A stretch of 64,000 nt of DNA from Stappia sp. 28M-7 (lineage in GTDB: Bacteria > Pseudomonadota > Alphaproteobacteria > Rhizobiales > Stappiaceae): assembly GCF_014252955.1 (NCBI RefSeq), contig NZ_JACMIA010000001.1, forward strand, positions 1,550,001 to 1,614,000, given 5' to 3'. The position numbers and the translations under genes were made by a program. Below are positions 7,549 through 14,282 of this stretch, one piece after another. The notes under the pieces are model-generated. The model saw only the letters and a list, made by a program, of their open reading frames with translations. It made no database searches and was not told the origin of the DNA. Each line of letters starts with the position of its first letter. Position 1 is the stretch's first letter.

Positions 7549-8973
7549 ATGTCGGGAGCGGCAAGCAGGTATTCGGGAACGCGCCTGGAGTTCGCACGGA
7601 TAGATGAAGCAACCAGGAAGACCTTGCGGGACCTTTGGACCGTGGTCGAGCCGAACCTGGATGGTATTCTTGCCGGATTCTACAAGCATCTCGTAATGGA
7701 GCCCTCGCTCAGGGAGCTCCTGGGAAATCGTCAGGCGGCCCTGGAGTCTGCTCAGAAGACGCACTGGCAGCGCCTGTTCAGTGCGAAATTCGACGAAGAC
7801 TACGAAAGCAGTATCAACCGGATCGGCCGCGCGCATAGCCGCATCGGCCTAGAGCCGCGCTGGTACATCGCCGGATATCAGTTTGTTCTCAACGAGTTGA
7901 CCGCCGTGGTGCTGAAGCGGCACCGCTTCTCGGTCACCAAGGCGCAGGGCGCTTTGCAGGCGCTCAACAAGGCCGTCCTGCTGGATCTCGACTACGCCAT
8001 CTCCACCTATCAGCAGATCCTGATGGAAGAGCAGGAGGCGCGCACCCGCTGTCTGTCCGAGGCGATCGACCGCTTCAAGGACAAGGTCGAGGCCTCGCTG
8101 GCCACCGTCGACAAGGCGGCCGACACGATGCAGAAGCGCGCCGACACGCTGTCGTCGGTCGCCGGCGCTGCGTCCCATGAGGCCATTTCCGCCTCTGCCG
8201 CATCCGAGCAGACTTCCACCAGCGTCCAGACGGTCGCCTCGGCGGCCGAGGAACTGGCCAGTTCCATCGAAGAGATCGCCCGGCAGGTCACCGGTGCGTC
8301 CGATGTCGCGCGTCGCGCGAACGTGGTCACCGACAGCGCCTCGCGCGAGGTCGGCCTGCTCTCGGTCACGGCCCAGAAGATCGGCGACGTCATCGGCCTG
8401 ATCCAGGCGATTGCCGAACAGACCAACCTGCTGGCGCTCAATGCCACCATCGAGGCGGCCCGGGCCGGTGATGCGGGGCGGGGCTTTGCCATCGTCGCGC
8501 AGGAAGTCAAGAATCTCGCTGGCCAGACCTCCAGGGCGACGGAAGACATCGCTCAGCAGATCGCCGAGATACAGAGTGCGACGACGCGGGCGGTCGACAC
8601 GATCAGCTCCATCGCCTCGACCGTCGGCGAGATCGACACGCTGACGGCGACGATTGCCGCTGCGATCGAGGAGCAGGGCGCGGCGACCCGCGAGATCTCG
8701 ATGAACGTTCAGCACGCGGCCCAGGGCACGGTCACCTTGACCCGCAATGTGACCGGCGTGACCGCGGCCATCGACAAGACGGAAGATGCCGCGCGCGACT
8801 TCCTGGTCGTCTCTGGAGACCTGCGCGGCCAGTCCGACCAGATCTCCGGGCAGATCCGCGATTTCTTCAGCGAAATCCGCCAGACGACCGAAAGCGGTGC
8901 CGCCAAGGGCAAGCACACGGCAGCATCGGGGGCGGGCTCCGGCCGGGCGGCCGATACACGCCGCTACGCCTAA
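7549..8973 (+). CDS. Globin-coupled methyl-accepting chemotaxis protein
   Basis: This is a 474-aa soluble sensor without transmembrane segments. Residues 10-165 form a sensor-globin domain with the proximal histidine at H96 ([18 protein letters not shown]), as in HemAT-type oxygen sensors. Residues about 190-450 are an MCP signalling coiled coil with the conserved hairpin tip [18 protein letters not shown]. Haem-bound oxygen (or another gas) is expected to alter CheA activity. No che genes are nearby, so it must feed a distant array. The C-terminal 25 residues are low complexity and lack a clear CheR-tethering pentapeptide. The upstream region carries a 16-bp palindrome. Confidence 0.92.
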
Positions 8974-9919
8974 TCGGCCCGGCCTGCGGGGCGCCAGATC
9001 GGCACAGGGGCAGGGCGCCCCTGTCGCCGAGGGAGGCAAACCGCACTCGAACGGATTGGCAAGCAGACCTGTTGAAACGAAGGTGCCCGCCCGTCCTCGG
9101 GCAGGCGCGAACGGCTTCGATTGCGACGAAACCGACCGTCCGTGGACAGGCGCGAACGGCTTCGATTGAGACGAAACCGACCGTCCGTGGACAGGCGCGA
9201 ACGGCCCCGACTGAAACGAAACCGCCCGTTCGCGTGCAGGCGCGAACGGGCGGGAACGTTTGAAAGCCCTGGACTAGGTCTTCTCGTATATTTTGTGCCG
9301 CCAGGCCTAATAACTTTGACGCCAAGGCGTCGTTGAAAATCACGATGCCGGTTCGGATCCGGCAGGAGTTCTCTCAATTCCGGCCCGCGATCTGCGCTCC
9401 GGCGGCCCCTTGAGGCCGGTCTTGACTGCCCAGTCTCCCGATCAGGGCCGAAAACTGGCCAAGGTCGGGAAAAGCGGGCCGGATCGTCCTGCGACCCGGC
9501 CCCAGTTAGGTCACGTGCGATCCGCAGCCTGAAAAGCTCCGGGCGGCCCGCTGTGACTTGTGACGTCCGTCCGGCAGGGCGAACTGCCGTTCCGGGCCGC
9601 GCCGAAGGCGCGTCGGAGAGAGGTCACAAGGGCACTCGTCAAACTCGATTCCGTCAATTCCACCCGAAGTCGGCCGGCGGTTACGCGGATCCTCCCACGG
9701 GCCCGCAACCTCTATGTCCGGTCCCGCATCACGCGCCCGCACGGCCATCAACCGGGTGGCATGGAATTCCGCCCGAATACCGGTAAAGCCGGCTGCGCGA
9801 ACCCCCATCCAATTGATTTTCCGATACAACACCAGCTAGCGTTATCTCTGCGTGATTTTTCTGCAAAGGGCGTGAAGCGACGGAGCGGAAGCGACCAAAC
9901 GAAAGTCGGGGGCTGACAC
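8974..9919. other. Long intergenic region with tandem repeats and hairpins
   Basis: This 946-bp region has no supported gene. It holds a hairpin at 9004-9024 (ACAGGGG/CCCCTGT) just after the sensor gene and a tandem repeat at 9074-9252. Two small inverted repeats lie near 9320-9353 (GACGCC/GGCGTC and TGCCGG/CCGGCA). A 51-codon frame at 9761-9916 starts ATGGAATTC and stops 3 bp before the YcaO gene. It has no good ribosome-binding site, and I regard it as a possible leader ORF only. Confidence 0.6.
9074..9252. repeat. Tandem repeat, about four copies of a 45-bp unit
   Basis: Copies containing ACGAAACCGACCGTCC and CAGGCGCGAACGG recur with an exact 45-bp step at 9125, 9170 and 9215, preceded by a diverged 49-bp copy from about 9076. 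Because 45 is a multiple of three and the unit lacks stops, several frames stay open across it on both strands. There is no start signal or neighbouring gene that supports translation, so I treat it as a non-coding minisatellite. Confidence 0.75.
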
Positions 9920-11293
9920 ATGCGGGAGGAGACCCGTCGGGCACTGGCCCTTGCGGCCGAACACCTGGAGAGGCGCGATGACCTGCCCGATCCCTCGGGA
10001 CCGGCTGGTCATTTCCTCGCCTATCTGGCGGAAGGCGCAACGGAAGGGCTGTCCGGCGACCGCGACCTTGCCCGCCTGATCGGCGTTGCCGCCCGCCTGG
10101 AGCGCCTGTTCGAATTGTCCCTTCCGGATGCCCCGGGCCTCTATTGCTTCGGAGCCGAGGTGGTGCCGAGCGTTTTCGGGGCGGCCATGGGCGCTCGCGG
10201 CTCCGTGTCCGGCGTCGGTGAGACACGGCTTGAGGCGTTTCGCGCCTGTGTCGGCGAAGCGGTCGAGTATCTCTCGCAGTTCGAACCTGCGCCGGCCGCG
10301 CCTTTCGAGCCGCGCGAAGGCGCGGAGACGCCTTTGGCCGATCAGGACTTCTGGAGCGAGGCGGAGAGCCTTGCGCTCGGTCTGGTGCCGTCACAGGAGC
10401 CGAGCGATGCAAGCGGCGGGCGCCTGCGTGCGCTGGATGAGCATGTCGTGGCCGCCGACCTCACAACCGGGCGACAGGGCCCGCTTCCGGCCGAGCTGTG
10501 CTGGCGCCGGCGCGACCGCGATACGCTGCCGTTCGCCCGAGGGCTTGGCGTTGCCGCCGGCCGCAGCTTTCGCGAGGCCTGCCGGCATGCGGCGCTGGAA
10601 TGGATCGAACGCGACGCGGTCGCCCTGTGGTGGCGCGGCGGCCGCCGCGGGCGGGCCATCCCGGTCGAAACGCTGTGTGCTCCTGCTGTCGCCGGTCGGA
10701 TCGCCCGGTGGCGAGGCGGAAGCGAGGCGCGGCTCAGCTGGTTCCTCGATCTCACCGGCGATCTCGGCGTGCCGGTGGCTGCGGCCCTGTCCGTCGACCG
10801 GCAGGGCAAGCGCTTCGCCTATGGCTTTGCAGCCCGGAAAAACCTTTCCTCGGCCCTGCTTGCCGCGTTCACAGAGCTGGCGCAGGTGGAACTGGCCGAT
10901 CGGGTGGTGGACGCCAAGCTCGCCGAGGCGGACGAGAAACGGCTGAACGACACGGATCGGTTGCACCTTGCCCGGCGCAGTCTCGTGAAGCCCGACTGGG
11001 AGGCGCTGCAGCCGGCCGAAGCGCCGGCATCCGGCAACCGGCAGGGCAGTGGAAATGCGGATGGCCCCCCCGAAAGTTTCGGGGATATTGAGCCGCTTTC
11101 AGCTCTCGCCAAACGAAATTTTCGTGCAGTGGCAATTGACCTTACCCGTGTCGATCCGGGTATAAGCGTTGTACGCGTGCTGGTTCCGGGATTGCAACCT
11201 GATCCGGCCACGCTGGTCACGCCGCGGCTCGAGCGGCAGCGGGCACTCCATTCCTCAGCCGGTTTTCCCGGTGATCGTGTCCGGCTCTACTGA
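9920..11293 (+). CDS. YcaO-domain protein (ATP-dependent peptide-backbone modification enzyme)
   Basis: This 457-aa protein fits the YcaO superfamily, which activates backbone amides with ATP to make azolines, thioamides or related groups. Motifs seen are GVGETRLEAFRACVGEAVEY with E113 and E116, LEWIERDAVALWW with E227/E230/R231, and FAARKNLSSALLAAFTELAQ with E319 and Q322. The C-terminal VVRVLVPGLQPDP segment is also typical. One oddity is that the first motif ends EAVEY where most family members have Arg, and there is no proline-rich C-terminus. No E1-like or TfuA partner gene is adjacent. It is followed 77 bp later by a SARP-type regulator, probably in one operon. The substrate is unknown; the convergent 120-aa protein is a candidate. 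Confidence 0.85.
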   Translation: MREETRRALALAAEHLERRDDLPDPSGPAGHFLAYLAEGATEGLSGDRDLARLIGVAARLERLFELSLPDAPGLYCFGAEVVPSVFGAAMGARGSVSGVGETRLEAFRACVGEAVEYLSQFEPAPAAPFEPREGAETPLADQDFWSEAESLALGLVPSQEPSDASGGRLRALDEHVVAADLTTGRQGPLPAELCWRRRDRDTLPFARGLGVAAGRSFREACRHAALEWIERDAVALWWRGGRRGRAIPVETLCAPAVAGRIARWRGGSEARLSWFLDLTGDLGVPVAAALSVDRQGKRFAYGFAARKNLSSALLAAFTELAQVELADRVVDAKLAEADEKRLNDTDRLHLARRSLVKPDWEALQPAEAPASGNRQGSGNADGPPESFGDIEPLSALAKRNFRAVAIDLTRVDPGISVVRVLVPGLQPDPATLVTPRLERQRALHSSAGFPGDRVRLY

Positions 11294-11370
11294 ATGCCTT
11301 TTCTTTCAAACCTTTTCCAGATTTCGGGGTGTGGGAAAACGGGGCGAGATCCTGCGGGATCTGACGTGGC

Positions 11371-13494
11371 ATGCAGGGGCGGAGTGACGTGGAGGACATA
11401 GGCAATCGCGAGGTCGCGGAACACGGGCAGGGCGCCGGCTCTGGACGCTCCCGTCTTCACGTTGCCGTATTGGGCGTGCCGCGTTTCCTGGTCGACGGCA
11501 AGCCGGTTGCGTTCCGCTCACGGAAGGCGGAGGGCCTGCTGGTCCGCCTGTGCCTGACCAGCGACGGCCGTCTGTCCCGTGAAATGGCCGCCAACCTGTT
11601 CTGGCAGGACAGTTCCGAACATCACTCCCGCTCGTCGTTGCGTCAGACGCTGCTGATCCTGCGCCGGGCGCTGGAGGATGCCGGGTTCGACGGTCTCGAC
11701 AGCGACAAGATGAACATCTGGCTGGATCTTGGCCGGGTCACGCTCGACATGGAGGAACTCGCCGGCGATGGGGGCGAGGTTCCGGCGCGGCTGCTGGTCG
11801 AAAAGCGTCTGTCCGAGCGCCTCTTCGAAGGCGGGGAGATGCTGGCCGAGCCCTTCCACAACTGGCTGCGCCTGCGCCGTCAGCAGCTTCACGACCAGTT
11901 GCGGGCGCTGCTGGAGCCTATGGTGCGCCTCGACAGCGGCAACTGGAAGCGGATGGAGCAGGCGGCCGTGGCGCTGCTTAATCTCGACCCGACGCATGAG
12001 CCGGCCTGCCGTGCCTTCATCACCGCCCGTGCAGTGCAGGGCGACTATACGGGCGCGCTGCGGGCCTACGAGGACCTTTGGAACGTGCTGGAGGACGAGT
12101 TCGACACTCAGCCTTCCAACGAGACCCAATCGCTGATCGTCGATATCAAGCTCGGCAAGTTTTCCGACTGGCTGCGCCGCGAGCGCATGCGTCTCGCCGA
12201 GGAAGCCGCTCAGCGCGCTCCCGCCTCGCCTGCGGTCGAAAAAGTTGACGGCAACCGCTCGCCGGTGGTGGTGCAGCACGTCAATCCGGTGATCGTGGTC
12301 GACCAGATCCTTCAGATCACCGAAGCTCATGAAGACATTCGACTGGCCAAGGTGTTCCGCCACGACCTGATTTCGCGTCTCGTCCGCTTTCGCGAGTGGT
12401 CCGTCGCCGACGATGTGACGGAAGAGCTGTCGCGCTCCGCGGCGCCCATCTACCGGGTGTCGATCAGCGCCATGCGGGCCGAACGTTCAGTATCCTATTC
12501 CGTGACGGTGAAGAACTCGCGCACCAACGCCTATGTCTGGGGGCGGAACTCGGCCGTCGATATCGGCGAGCTGTTCGCTCGCCAGTCGATGTTGGTCGCC
12601 GAGATCGCCATGGCGATGAACGTCAACATCTCGGCCGAGCGGCTGGCCAACATGTCGCGCATCCCGGATGCGTCGCTGGACCAGTATGACCGCCTGCTGA
12701 TGGGCCAGAGGCTCCATTACACCTGGAAGATCGAGGACTCCCATCGCGCCGAGGCGATCCTGGACCGGCTGATCGAGGACAATCCCCGCTTCGGCCCTGC
12801 CTATTCGAGCCTGGCGCAGATCATCAATTCCCGCCACATCGTCTTTCCCGGCCAGGCGCAGACGCCGGAGACGCTCGAGCGCTCCGCCGGGTTGGCACGC
12901 ATGGCGCTGGCGCTCGATCCCTTCGACTCGCGCGGCTATCTGTGCGCCGCCTGGACGCTGGCGCTGCAGCGGCGCTTCGAGCAGGCGGAGGCGCAGCATC
13001 GCCAGGCTCTGGAGCTCAACGACAACGACCCCTGGACGGCGTTGTCCGCCGCACACGGGCTTGCCTATTACGGCCATCGCCAGGAAGCCCTGGCCATCGC
13101 CTATCGCCACCGCGAGAACGGCCTGCTGACCTCACCCTTGCACTGGAGCTATTTCGTCGGCATCACCTGCCTGTGCGGCGACCATGCGGCTTCCATCGCG
13201 GCTTTTCGCTATCTCAGCGATGGCTATCTCGGCGTCGAGGCCTGGTATGTCGCCGCGCTCGCGCTGACCGGCGAGGAAGAGGAGGCCCGCGCTCAGGCGA
13301 GCCATCTCAAGCAGCGGGTGACTGACCGCTGGGTGCTGCCGCAGCCGCCGGATGATGACGATATCGCCCGCTGGATCGGCAATTGCTTCCCGATCTCCTC
13401 GCCGCGCACCTGGGACGAGATCCATCAAGGCCTGTCGTCCGCCGGGATCGTGTTGCCGGCCGATCTTGCTCCCGAGGGCGCTACCCGCCGGTGA
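11371..13494 (+). CDS. SARP/BTAD-type transcriptional regulator with TPR tail
   Basis: This 707-aa protein has an OmpR-like winged helix at residues about 30-115 (RSRKAEGLLVRLCL; REMAANLFWQDSSEHH) and a BTAD domain to about residue 265. A central region of unclear type runs to about 450, and TPR-like repeats follow at about 465-650 (ALALDPFDSRGYLCAAWTL; RQALELNDNDPW). SARP proteins commonly activate natural-product or peptide loci. It lies 77 bp after the YcaO gene and converges on the 120-aa gene. GTG at 11389 has a better GGCGGAG ribosome-binding site and could be the true start. No kinase or cyclase domain is present. Control of the YcaO locus is inferred from adjacency. Confidence 0.85.
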   Translation: MQGRSDVEDIGNREVAEHGQGAGSGRSRLHVAVLGVPRFLVDGKPVAFRSRKAEGLLVRLCLTSDGRLSREMAANLFWQDSSEHHSRSSLRQTLLILRRALEDAGFDGLDSDKMNIWLDLGRVTLDMEELAGDGGEVPARLLVEKRLSERLFEGGEMLAEPFHNWLRLRRQQLHDQLRALLEPMVRLDSGNWKRMEQAAVALLNLDPTHEPACRAFITARAVQGDYTGALRAYEDLWNVLEDEFDTQPSNETQSLIVDIKLGKFSDWLRRERMRLAEEAAQRAPASPAVEKVDGNRSPVVVQHVNPVIVVDQILQITEAHEDIRLAKVFRHDLISRLVRFREWSVADDVTEELSRSAAPIYRVSISAMRAERSVSYSVTVKNSRTNAYVWGRNSAVDIGELFARQSMLVAEIAMAMNVNISAERLANMSRIPDASLDQYDRLLMGQRLHYTWKIEDSHRAEAILDRLIEDNPRFGPAYSSLAQIINSRHIVFPGQAQTPETLERSAGLARMALALDPFDSRGYLCAAWTLALQRRFEQAEAQHRQALELNDNDPWTALSAAHGLAYYGHRQEALAIAYRHRENGLLTSPLHWSYFVGITCLCGDHAASIAAFRYLSDGYLGVEAWYVAALALTGEEEEARAQASHLKQRVTDRWVLPQPPDDDDIARWIGNCFPISSPRTWDEIHQGLSSAGIVLPADLAPEGATRR

Positions 13495-13538
13495 GCCAAT
13501 GCCGGACGCTGGACGAACTGCGGCAGTTTGCGGGTAAC

Positions 13539-13600
13539 GTGAAAAGGGCCGCGAAACATCGCGGCGAGCGTGAAAAAGGGCCGCGAAACATCGCGGCCCT
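13539..13600 (-). terminator. Duplicated intrinsic terminators
   Basis: Two direct copies of a hairpin unit (13548-13565 and 13577-13600) lie just after the minus-strand gene that stops at 13627. The nearer one has 9-bp arms AGGGCCGCG/CGCGGCCCT around a 6-nt loop followed on the minus strand by TTTTTC. The farther one has 6-bp arms GCCGCG/CGCGGC followed by CCTTTTC. Together they give strong termination and also separate the convergent regulator gene. Confidence 0.8.
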
Positions 13601-13626
13601 CCGAACTCTCCTGAAGGCGAAAAACC

Positions 13627-13989
13627 TCAGGTGCACACGGCAATCGTGTAGTCGGCAACGCGACTGAGATAGAAGTCGTGCTCGTTCATCTCGTCCTTGC
13701 GGGCGTAGAAATCCGGCAGCGGATAGGCCTTCGCCGAGACATCCCCGTATTTGGCCAGCGACTCTTCGGTCATGCGCCGCGGCGGCAGGCGAAGGAGCAG
13801 GACTTCCTCGCAGGCCTGGATCATTTGCAGGGCCTTGTAGGTATCGGGAATCGTGGCGATGCCCTTGGTGGCCTGCTTCAGGGCTTCCAGCGTCTCCGGC
13901 CAAGGCTTCGCGCCCGTGGCGTATTCGGTGATCAGCTGGCCGAACGCCTGGTAATCGTGGATCTCGACCTTTTTGAGTTCGTCAGTCAT
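13627..13989 (-). CDS. Unrecognised 120-aa protein ending in Cys-Thr; candidate YcaO substrate
   Basis: The chosen start (MTDELKKVEIHDYQ) has GGGG 10 bp upstream; an ATG four codons earlier is possible. The protein is soluble and helical, with no signal peptide, and two cysteines: one in MIQACEEVLLL and one as the penultimate residue (DYTIAVCT). I do not recognise its family. It is monocistronic, has an AT-rich upstream region, ends in duplicated strong terminators and converges on the SARP gene of the YcaO operon. A precursor-like role with a C-terminal Cys-Thr core is attractive but rests only on context. A small metabolic or regulatory protein is equally possible. Confidence 0.7.
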   Translation of the reverse strand: MTDELKKVEIHDYQAFGQLITEYATGAKPWPETLEALKQATKGIATIPDTYKALQMIQACEEVLLLRLPPRRMTEESLAKYGDVSAKAYPLPDFYARKDEMNEHDFYLSRVADYTIAVCT

Positions 13990-14282
13990 GTATTGCCCCA
14001 TAAAATATGTTGGCTAAGGAAAACGCCAGTTGGCCGCTCCGGTCTTCCTTCCGCGATAAAGCTGCCCCTTCGACGAAAGACCGGGCTTTTGAAAAATTAC
14101 TTTGCGGCGCACTGGCGCACGAAAGTCATGCAAATCACTTCATGACATCTGAAATTAGATGTTGAGTGAGGCGAGTCGTCAAGATGTTTCGGGGAAGAAA
14201 TGATCTTCCGCAACTTAAGCGATAAAAAATCTATTTCTGATTTTCTTTATTTATCATACAACCCTGAGTATATCAGATTGAG
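13990..14282. other. AT-rich region upstream of the 120-aa gene
   Basis: This stretch of nearly 300 bp holds the promoter region of the leftward 120-aa gene. It has a strongly AT-rich core at 14210-14282 and an inverted repeat ACATCT/AGATGT at 14145-14162 with a 6-nt spacer. No gene is seen. The composition contrasts with the GC-rich neighbours and fits a regulated promoter. Confidence 0.45.

Follow-up and report, generated by a model that had tools for sequence, protein, structure and literature searches.

The window, a 64,000-nt stretch of the Stappia sp. 28M-7 genome, carries a YcaO gene, a gene for a BTAD/TPR regulator that starts exactly 77 bp past the YcaO stop, and a convergent gene for a 120-aa protein, P0003, that ends in IAVCT. 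What does this YcaO act on? Most knowledge of YcaO enzymes comes from antibiotic-like peptides and two thioamidations with a housekeeping role. The initial annotation of the window had described the three genes and proposed P0003 as the substrate, with a leader and a C-terminal core. Open reading frames and domain matches confirm the arrangement (Table 1). All three frames are conserved as proteins in relatives, with dN/dS of 0.03-0.37 over all tested pairs, and are therefore genes.

Table 1 Features of the YcaO/P0003 locus in the window
Feature	Position (nt)	Strand	Evidence or remark
YcaO-domain enzyme, 457 aa	9920-11293	+	PF02624 E 4e-38; subfamily HMM E 5e-142
BTAD/TPR (SARP-like) transcription regulator, 707 aa	11371-13494	+	BTAD PF03704 E 3e-12; TPR_17 over cut-off
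Small protein P0003, 120 aa, candidate YcaO substrate	13627-13989	-	ends DYTIAVCT
Codons of RVADYTIAVCT, C-terminal motif of P0003	13630-13662	-	top-conserved 10-residue window
Cys119 codon of P0003	13633-13635	-	Cys119 invariant in alignment
Predicted tail AVCT of P0003	13630-13641	-	beyond last helix 103-116 (AlphaFold2 model)
Two tandem intrinsic terminators, P0003 gene	13534-13604	-	24-nt direct repeat; hairpins and U runs
Haem peroxidase site in relatives, gene lost in the window's clade	13990-14282	.	comparison with relatives

The regulator contains a BTAD domain; its N-terminal winged-helix part has no Pfam match. It probably controls expression of the locus. The duplicated terminators described for the P0003 gene are real. 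A 24-nt direct repeat (13542-13565 and 13574-13597) forms two hairpins on the minus strand (-23.5 and -14.0 kcal/mol; z -5.1 and -3.0), followed on their 3' sides by UUUUU and UUUU. They were not picked up by a simple scan and were shown by repeat and folding analysis. Upstream of YcaO lie a protoglobin-MCP chemoreceptor gene (7549-8973) and, after it, a 45-bp tandem array of 3.6 copies (9087-9249). Searches for plasmid and Rfam matches gave none. The same genome contains a second YcaO (G000:C1:1382088-1383056) in a separate azole-peptide-like cluster (L030:4826-12280) with an ABC transporter, a thiopeptide-type biosynthesis protein (TIGR03891) and a SagB-like dehydrogenase. This cluster is ordinary-looking and forms no part of the finding reported here.

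The window YcaO scores 131.9 bits against PF02624 (gathering cut-off 25.7). Residues 2-457 of its AlphaFold2 model (pLDDT 88.8) superpose on LynD 290-775 with Z 29.6, and the predicted fold matches all solved YcaOs at Z 20-30. Across 42 YcaO sequences E113, E227, E230, R231, E319 and E324 are invariant and Q322 is nearly so; as in other members of the YcaO family, these residues would be the ATP/Mg ligands. By sequence profile the nearest solved relatives are LynD and TruD (LynD E 3e-46). MusD, like the archaeal and E. coli enzymes, is more distant; the E. coli YcaO is a marginal match with the same profile (E 0.00096) and not a close relative. Structure comparison leaves LynD, the archaeal YcaOs and MusD nearly tied as nearest.

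A C-terminal PxPxP marks azoline-forming YcaOs. It is found in 0 of the 42 sequences. The model covers only residues 290-775 of LynD, and a fused RRE or E1-like domain is absent. Since both the RRE/E1-like part and PxPxP are missing, we do not class the enzyme as a standard TOMM cyclodehydratase. Likewise, no RRE or E1-like/ocin-ThiF neighbour and no TfuA, protease or exporter recurs around the loci examined, in agreement with the reported lack of such genes beside the window YcaO. More distant YcaOs adjoin BTAD-type regulators at four loci (L205-L208), one of which (L205) also adjoins a haem peroxidase; the association between YcaO and BTAD proteins may be older than the P0003-linked subfamily.

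The initial annotation had suggested asking whether YcaO and the small protein co-occur. They do so almost without exception: even unlinked pairs occur together, and joint losses are seen. Within the genus, both genes are present in nine genomes and neither in five. Among the 87 genomes of the family, YcaO (E<=1e-20) occurs in 14 and P0003 was found by direct search in 13. In the fourteenth genome (G042) a divergent small gene, whose product ends in RLADYCIDLCM, occupies the convergent position where one would be expected; with it the small protein is found in 14/14 genomes that have YcaO. In the order (397 genomes), the family-level P0003 alignment finds the small protein in 24, discounting one weak match (G199; E 0.008, internal stop) that we treated as chance; all 24 carry a full-length subfamily YcaO at E<1e-60. 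Five further order genomes have a subfamily YcaO. Three of these (G135, G227, G409) have a more divergent small gene near YcaO, and in the other two (G092, G124) no small protein is detectable. The order therefore contains 27 genomes with both genes, two with YcaO only and none with the small protein only, counts that represent related genomes and not phylogenetically independent events. In one metagenome-assembled genome (L157) a divergent small gene is present, but a YcaO was not found.

The pairing also holds where the two genes are apart. In G296 YcaO lies 1.3 Mb from the small gene. Three fetched loci (L136, L147, L123) lack YcaO, yet each genome has one elsewhere: in that of L136 it lies just past the fetched stretch, in those of L147 and L123 on another contig or at a large distance. 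Conversely, four loci of the Stappia group that keep the regulator (L098, L099, L105, L106) have no small gene, and their genomes contain no matching YcaO; one of the four keeps the peroxidase described below. The YcaO/small-protein family is sparse but widespread in alphaproteobacteria, with representatives in Stappia, many Bradyrhizobium, Inquilinus, Roseomonas, Stella, Hyphomicrobium and others. The co-occurrence shows that YcaO and P0003 are coupled; it does not show catalysis.

P0003 belongs to an alphaproteobacterial family without Pfam, NCBIfam or PDB match: neither P0003 nor 55 relatives gave a relevant Pfam or NCBIfam hit, and a fold look-up of P0003 in the PDB returned nothing significant. 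It is strongly constrained, with dN/dS of 0.03-0.10 against its three nearest relatives. Its AlphaFold2 model (pLDDT 89.3) is a compact, mainly helical domain in which about 116 residues are predicted to fold, leaving the four residues AVCT outside the helices. Such a predicted fold does not support the leader and core of a typical RiPP. One feature of RiPP precursors, a gene-encoded substrate linked to its modifying enzyme, is found: the small gene adjoins YcaO/regulator in 46 of the 53 complete loci.

Comparison of the C-termini, proposed earlier as a way to find variable last residues, revealed conservation instead. Among 55 aligned family sequences, residues 110-119 rank first in conservation among 111 windows of 10 residues, which leads us to reject a variable C-terminal core. 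R110, Y114 and C119 are invariant, position 113 is D or E, and only residues flanking the Cys (117, 118 and 120) vary. The consensus is ...R[IV]xDY[TS][IV]xxCx-end. The penultimate Cys is present in all 60 distinct sequences, which came from profiles that themselves include the C-terminal motif, and is the sole Cys in 41. Two very divergent proteins located by peroxidase adjacency rather than by sequence end in ITKCR and LRRCR. Tandem duplicated small-protein genes with intact tails occur in two loci (L059:9417-10342, L140:8117-9033). The proposal that P0003 is a YcaO substrate thus survives as a dedicated partner, on the strength of the co-occurrence and the invariant tail Cys, and is not supported in its leader/core form.

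The locus had been thought minimal or reliant on distant partners. In fact the locus usually includes a neighbouring haem peroxidase gene, which the window's clade has lost. A narrowed regulator alignment, scanned against one genome per species, identified 67 named loci, whose titles place nearly all of them clearly in the alphaproteobacteria. Fifty-three have room on both sides, and 39 of these contain YcaO, regulator, small gene and haem peroxidase; seven lack the peroxidase only, three lack a nearby YcaO only and four are otherwise partial. One layout is shared by 38 of the 39 four-gene loci, in which the YcaO-regulator pair and the pair of small gene and peroxidase are transcribed towards each other. 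In nearly all loci the peroxidase gene immediately precedes the small gene and has the same orientation. No fifth recurring gene family emerged around 28 representative loci, where the other large clusters shadowed the four families, on the antisense strand or out of frame. Two genomes carry second, divergent copies (G369, L199:7985-14673; G287, L200:8362-14455), with YcaO, peroxidase and small protein on one strand, the regulator convergent, and small-protein tails RICDYVISHCA/G.

The partner peroxidase is a distant member of the peroxidase-cyclooxygenase (animal-type) superfamily. All 22 partners searched match PF03098 at E<0.01 (best 4e-18), and the distal Gln, His and Arg and proximal His motifs are retained, with Q121, H125, R234 and H348 (L151 numbering) kept in 54/54 sequences. 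In contrast to the solved members of the superfamily, of which lactoperoxidase (E 1e-4) and myeloperoxidase are nearest, these very distant proteins are tied to a YcaO and a Cys-tail protein. A shared Tat export route was considered and dropped, as a Tat-like signal is present in 1 of 57 partners. One locus without a BTAD regulator (L068:9227-16580) combines the small Cys-tail protein, haem peroxidase and YcaO with a vanadium bromoperoxidase (E 1e-89 to solved enzymes) and a protein of about 409-450 aa; another (L069:2818-9405, L204) is laid out similarly. This richer variant hints at halogenation.

In five Stappia relatives (L078, L079, L081-L083) the peroxidase gene lies between a Na+/H+ antiporter gene and the small gene. 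Genome-wide searches found no match to the Stappia peroxidase in the window's genome or in five others (G000, G074, G075, G080, G081, G084), with three positive controls matching (G082, G085, G086). G076 has a broken copy, and tblastn detected no remnant at the corresponding site of the window. The P0003 gene, described as monocistronic, is so in the window. In most relatives it is preceded by the peroxidase gene, and the monocistronic form is therefore a secondary state of the window's clade. YcaO, regulator and small gene are under purifying selection there despite the loss. S. stellulata (L099/G085) shows the opposite state, with peroxidase and regulator kept and YcaO and small protein gone. 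Because losses run in both directions, YcaO tracks the small protein and not the peroxidase. The losses disfavour the peroxidase as the YcaO target; it could not be the target in the window's clade, but could be in other lineages.

We infer that YcaO and P0003 are, with good probability, an enzyme-substrate pair in which the backbone is modified at the penultimate Cys and the peroxidase acts downstream. P0003 would be a compact helical carrier domain presenting a short C-terminal tail, ...IxxCx. As no RRE or E1-like partner was seen, YcaO would probably recognise P0003 through its folded domain and the conserved R-x-x-D-Y helix face, which would stand in for a classical leader. With ATP, YcaO would then phosphorylate and thereby activate the tail backbone amide next to the invariant Cys; with LynD and TruD as the nearest solved relatives, a thiazoline would be the likeliest product. 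In most relatives the haem peroxidase of the same operon would probably oxidise or halogenate the modified small protein, at its tail or at the conserved Tyr, or make some other use of the product. In the window's clade the pair would go on alone after loss of the peroxidase. Points that speak against this reading are the absence of PxPxP and of an RRE or E1-like partner, and the three genomes in which one gene was found without the other (G092, G124, L157).

Such a pair would resemble several known systems in part. With the cyanobactin heterocyclases LynD and TruD it shares the YcaO fold, the closest sequence match and Cys as the likely target. Unlike them, the window YcaO lacks the fused RRE/E1-like domain and PxPxP, and there is no variable-core precursor, protease or exporter; the substrate is predicted to be folded, with one fixed Cys. 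MprC/MprE7 is a YcaO pathway with a nitrile-hydratase-like (proteusin) leader (PMC12455567), a long folded domain read by protein-protein contacts, and C-terminal residues are modified, as would be the case for the proposed pair. The P0003 tail, in contrast, is four residues long and fixed, and whereas MprC uses an RRE, the window YcaO has none. No Pfam or NCBIfam match (55 members) and no PDB fold match links the P0003 family to the nitrile-hydratase-like leader, which does not by itself prove a different fold. The YcaOs responsible for glycine thioamidation of McrA (PMC5589413) and thioamidation of uL16 in E. coli (PMC13063428) likewise are standalone enzymes, each acting at a single fixed position of a folded protein and yielding no natural product. 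They differ in YcaO subfamily and in targeting core-cell proteins, whereas here the small protein is dedicated and a haem peroxidase is the partner.

It is possible, although we hold it to be the less probable outcome, that YcaO modifies the small protein by another chemistry, such as ATP-dependent trimming of the tail, thioamide formation, or a C-terminal amidine or lactone. MusD (PDB 7u58), a YcaO with ATP-dependent peptidase activity according to the entry title, is among the closest solved structures (Z 28.1), has a related fold and illustrates a possible outcome at a C-terminal site; it belongs to a cyanobactin-type pathway and has an extra N-terminal part, which the window YcaO lacks. 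The tail forms the very end of P0003, a natural place for trimming, and the absence of PxPxP also fits a different product. Against this, the nearest enzymes by sequence are LynD and TruD and not the archaeal or E. coli YcaOs, a TfuA neighbour does not recur, and the invariance of the Cys is best matched by heterocyclisation.

More tentatively, the small protein may carry a C-terminal heterocycle, made by YcaO from the penultimate Cys, as a cofactor or redox carrier for the co-encoded animal-type haem peroxidase. It would then be a stable protein and not a natural-product precursor, and the window's clade would keep the YcaO half of the system.

It is unlikely that the small protein is mainly an accessory subunit, chaperone or adaptor of the peroxidase, with YcaO modifying the peroxidase or something else. 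The position of the peroxidase gene directly before the small gene would suit such a role, as would the recurrence of this pair beside a vanadium bromoperoxidase in L068. However, the window's clade maintains YcaO and small protein under purifying selection with no peroxidase genome-wide, and S. stellulata keeps a peroxidase without either. That YcaO modifies an unrelated cellular protein, the small protein being a mere neighbour under shared regulation, is very improbable: standalone YcaOs can have housekeeping targets, as E. coli YcaO has in uL16 (PMC13063428), but that enzyme is a marginal sequence match (E 1e-3), unlinked YcaO/small-protein pairs co-occur and are lost jointly, the small-protein family is found almost only with this YcaO, and a subfamily present in about 29 of 397 order genomes is too sparse for the housekeeping role that the initial annotation had offered as its alternative.

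We found no open-access description of a YcaO linked with a haem peroxidase, a haloperoxidase, Bradyrhizobium, a SARP regulator or such a small protein, a search that cannot prove the system unpublished. On the preferred reading, of YcaO and P0003 as enzyme and substrate, the locus appears to encode a so far undescribed system for protein modification, which pairs a YcaO with one small protein of predicted fold that has a single invariant tail Cys, mostly together with a haem peroxidase. If true, it would define a class of YcaO substrates recognised without an RRE, might provide a protein-bound heterocycle cofactor, and would give bacterial animal-type peroxidases a role. There is a real chance that the locus encodes a peptide-derived cofactor system, which would then be of a new kind.
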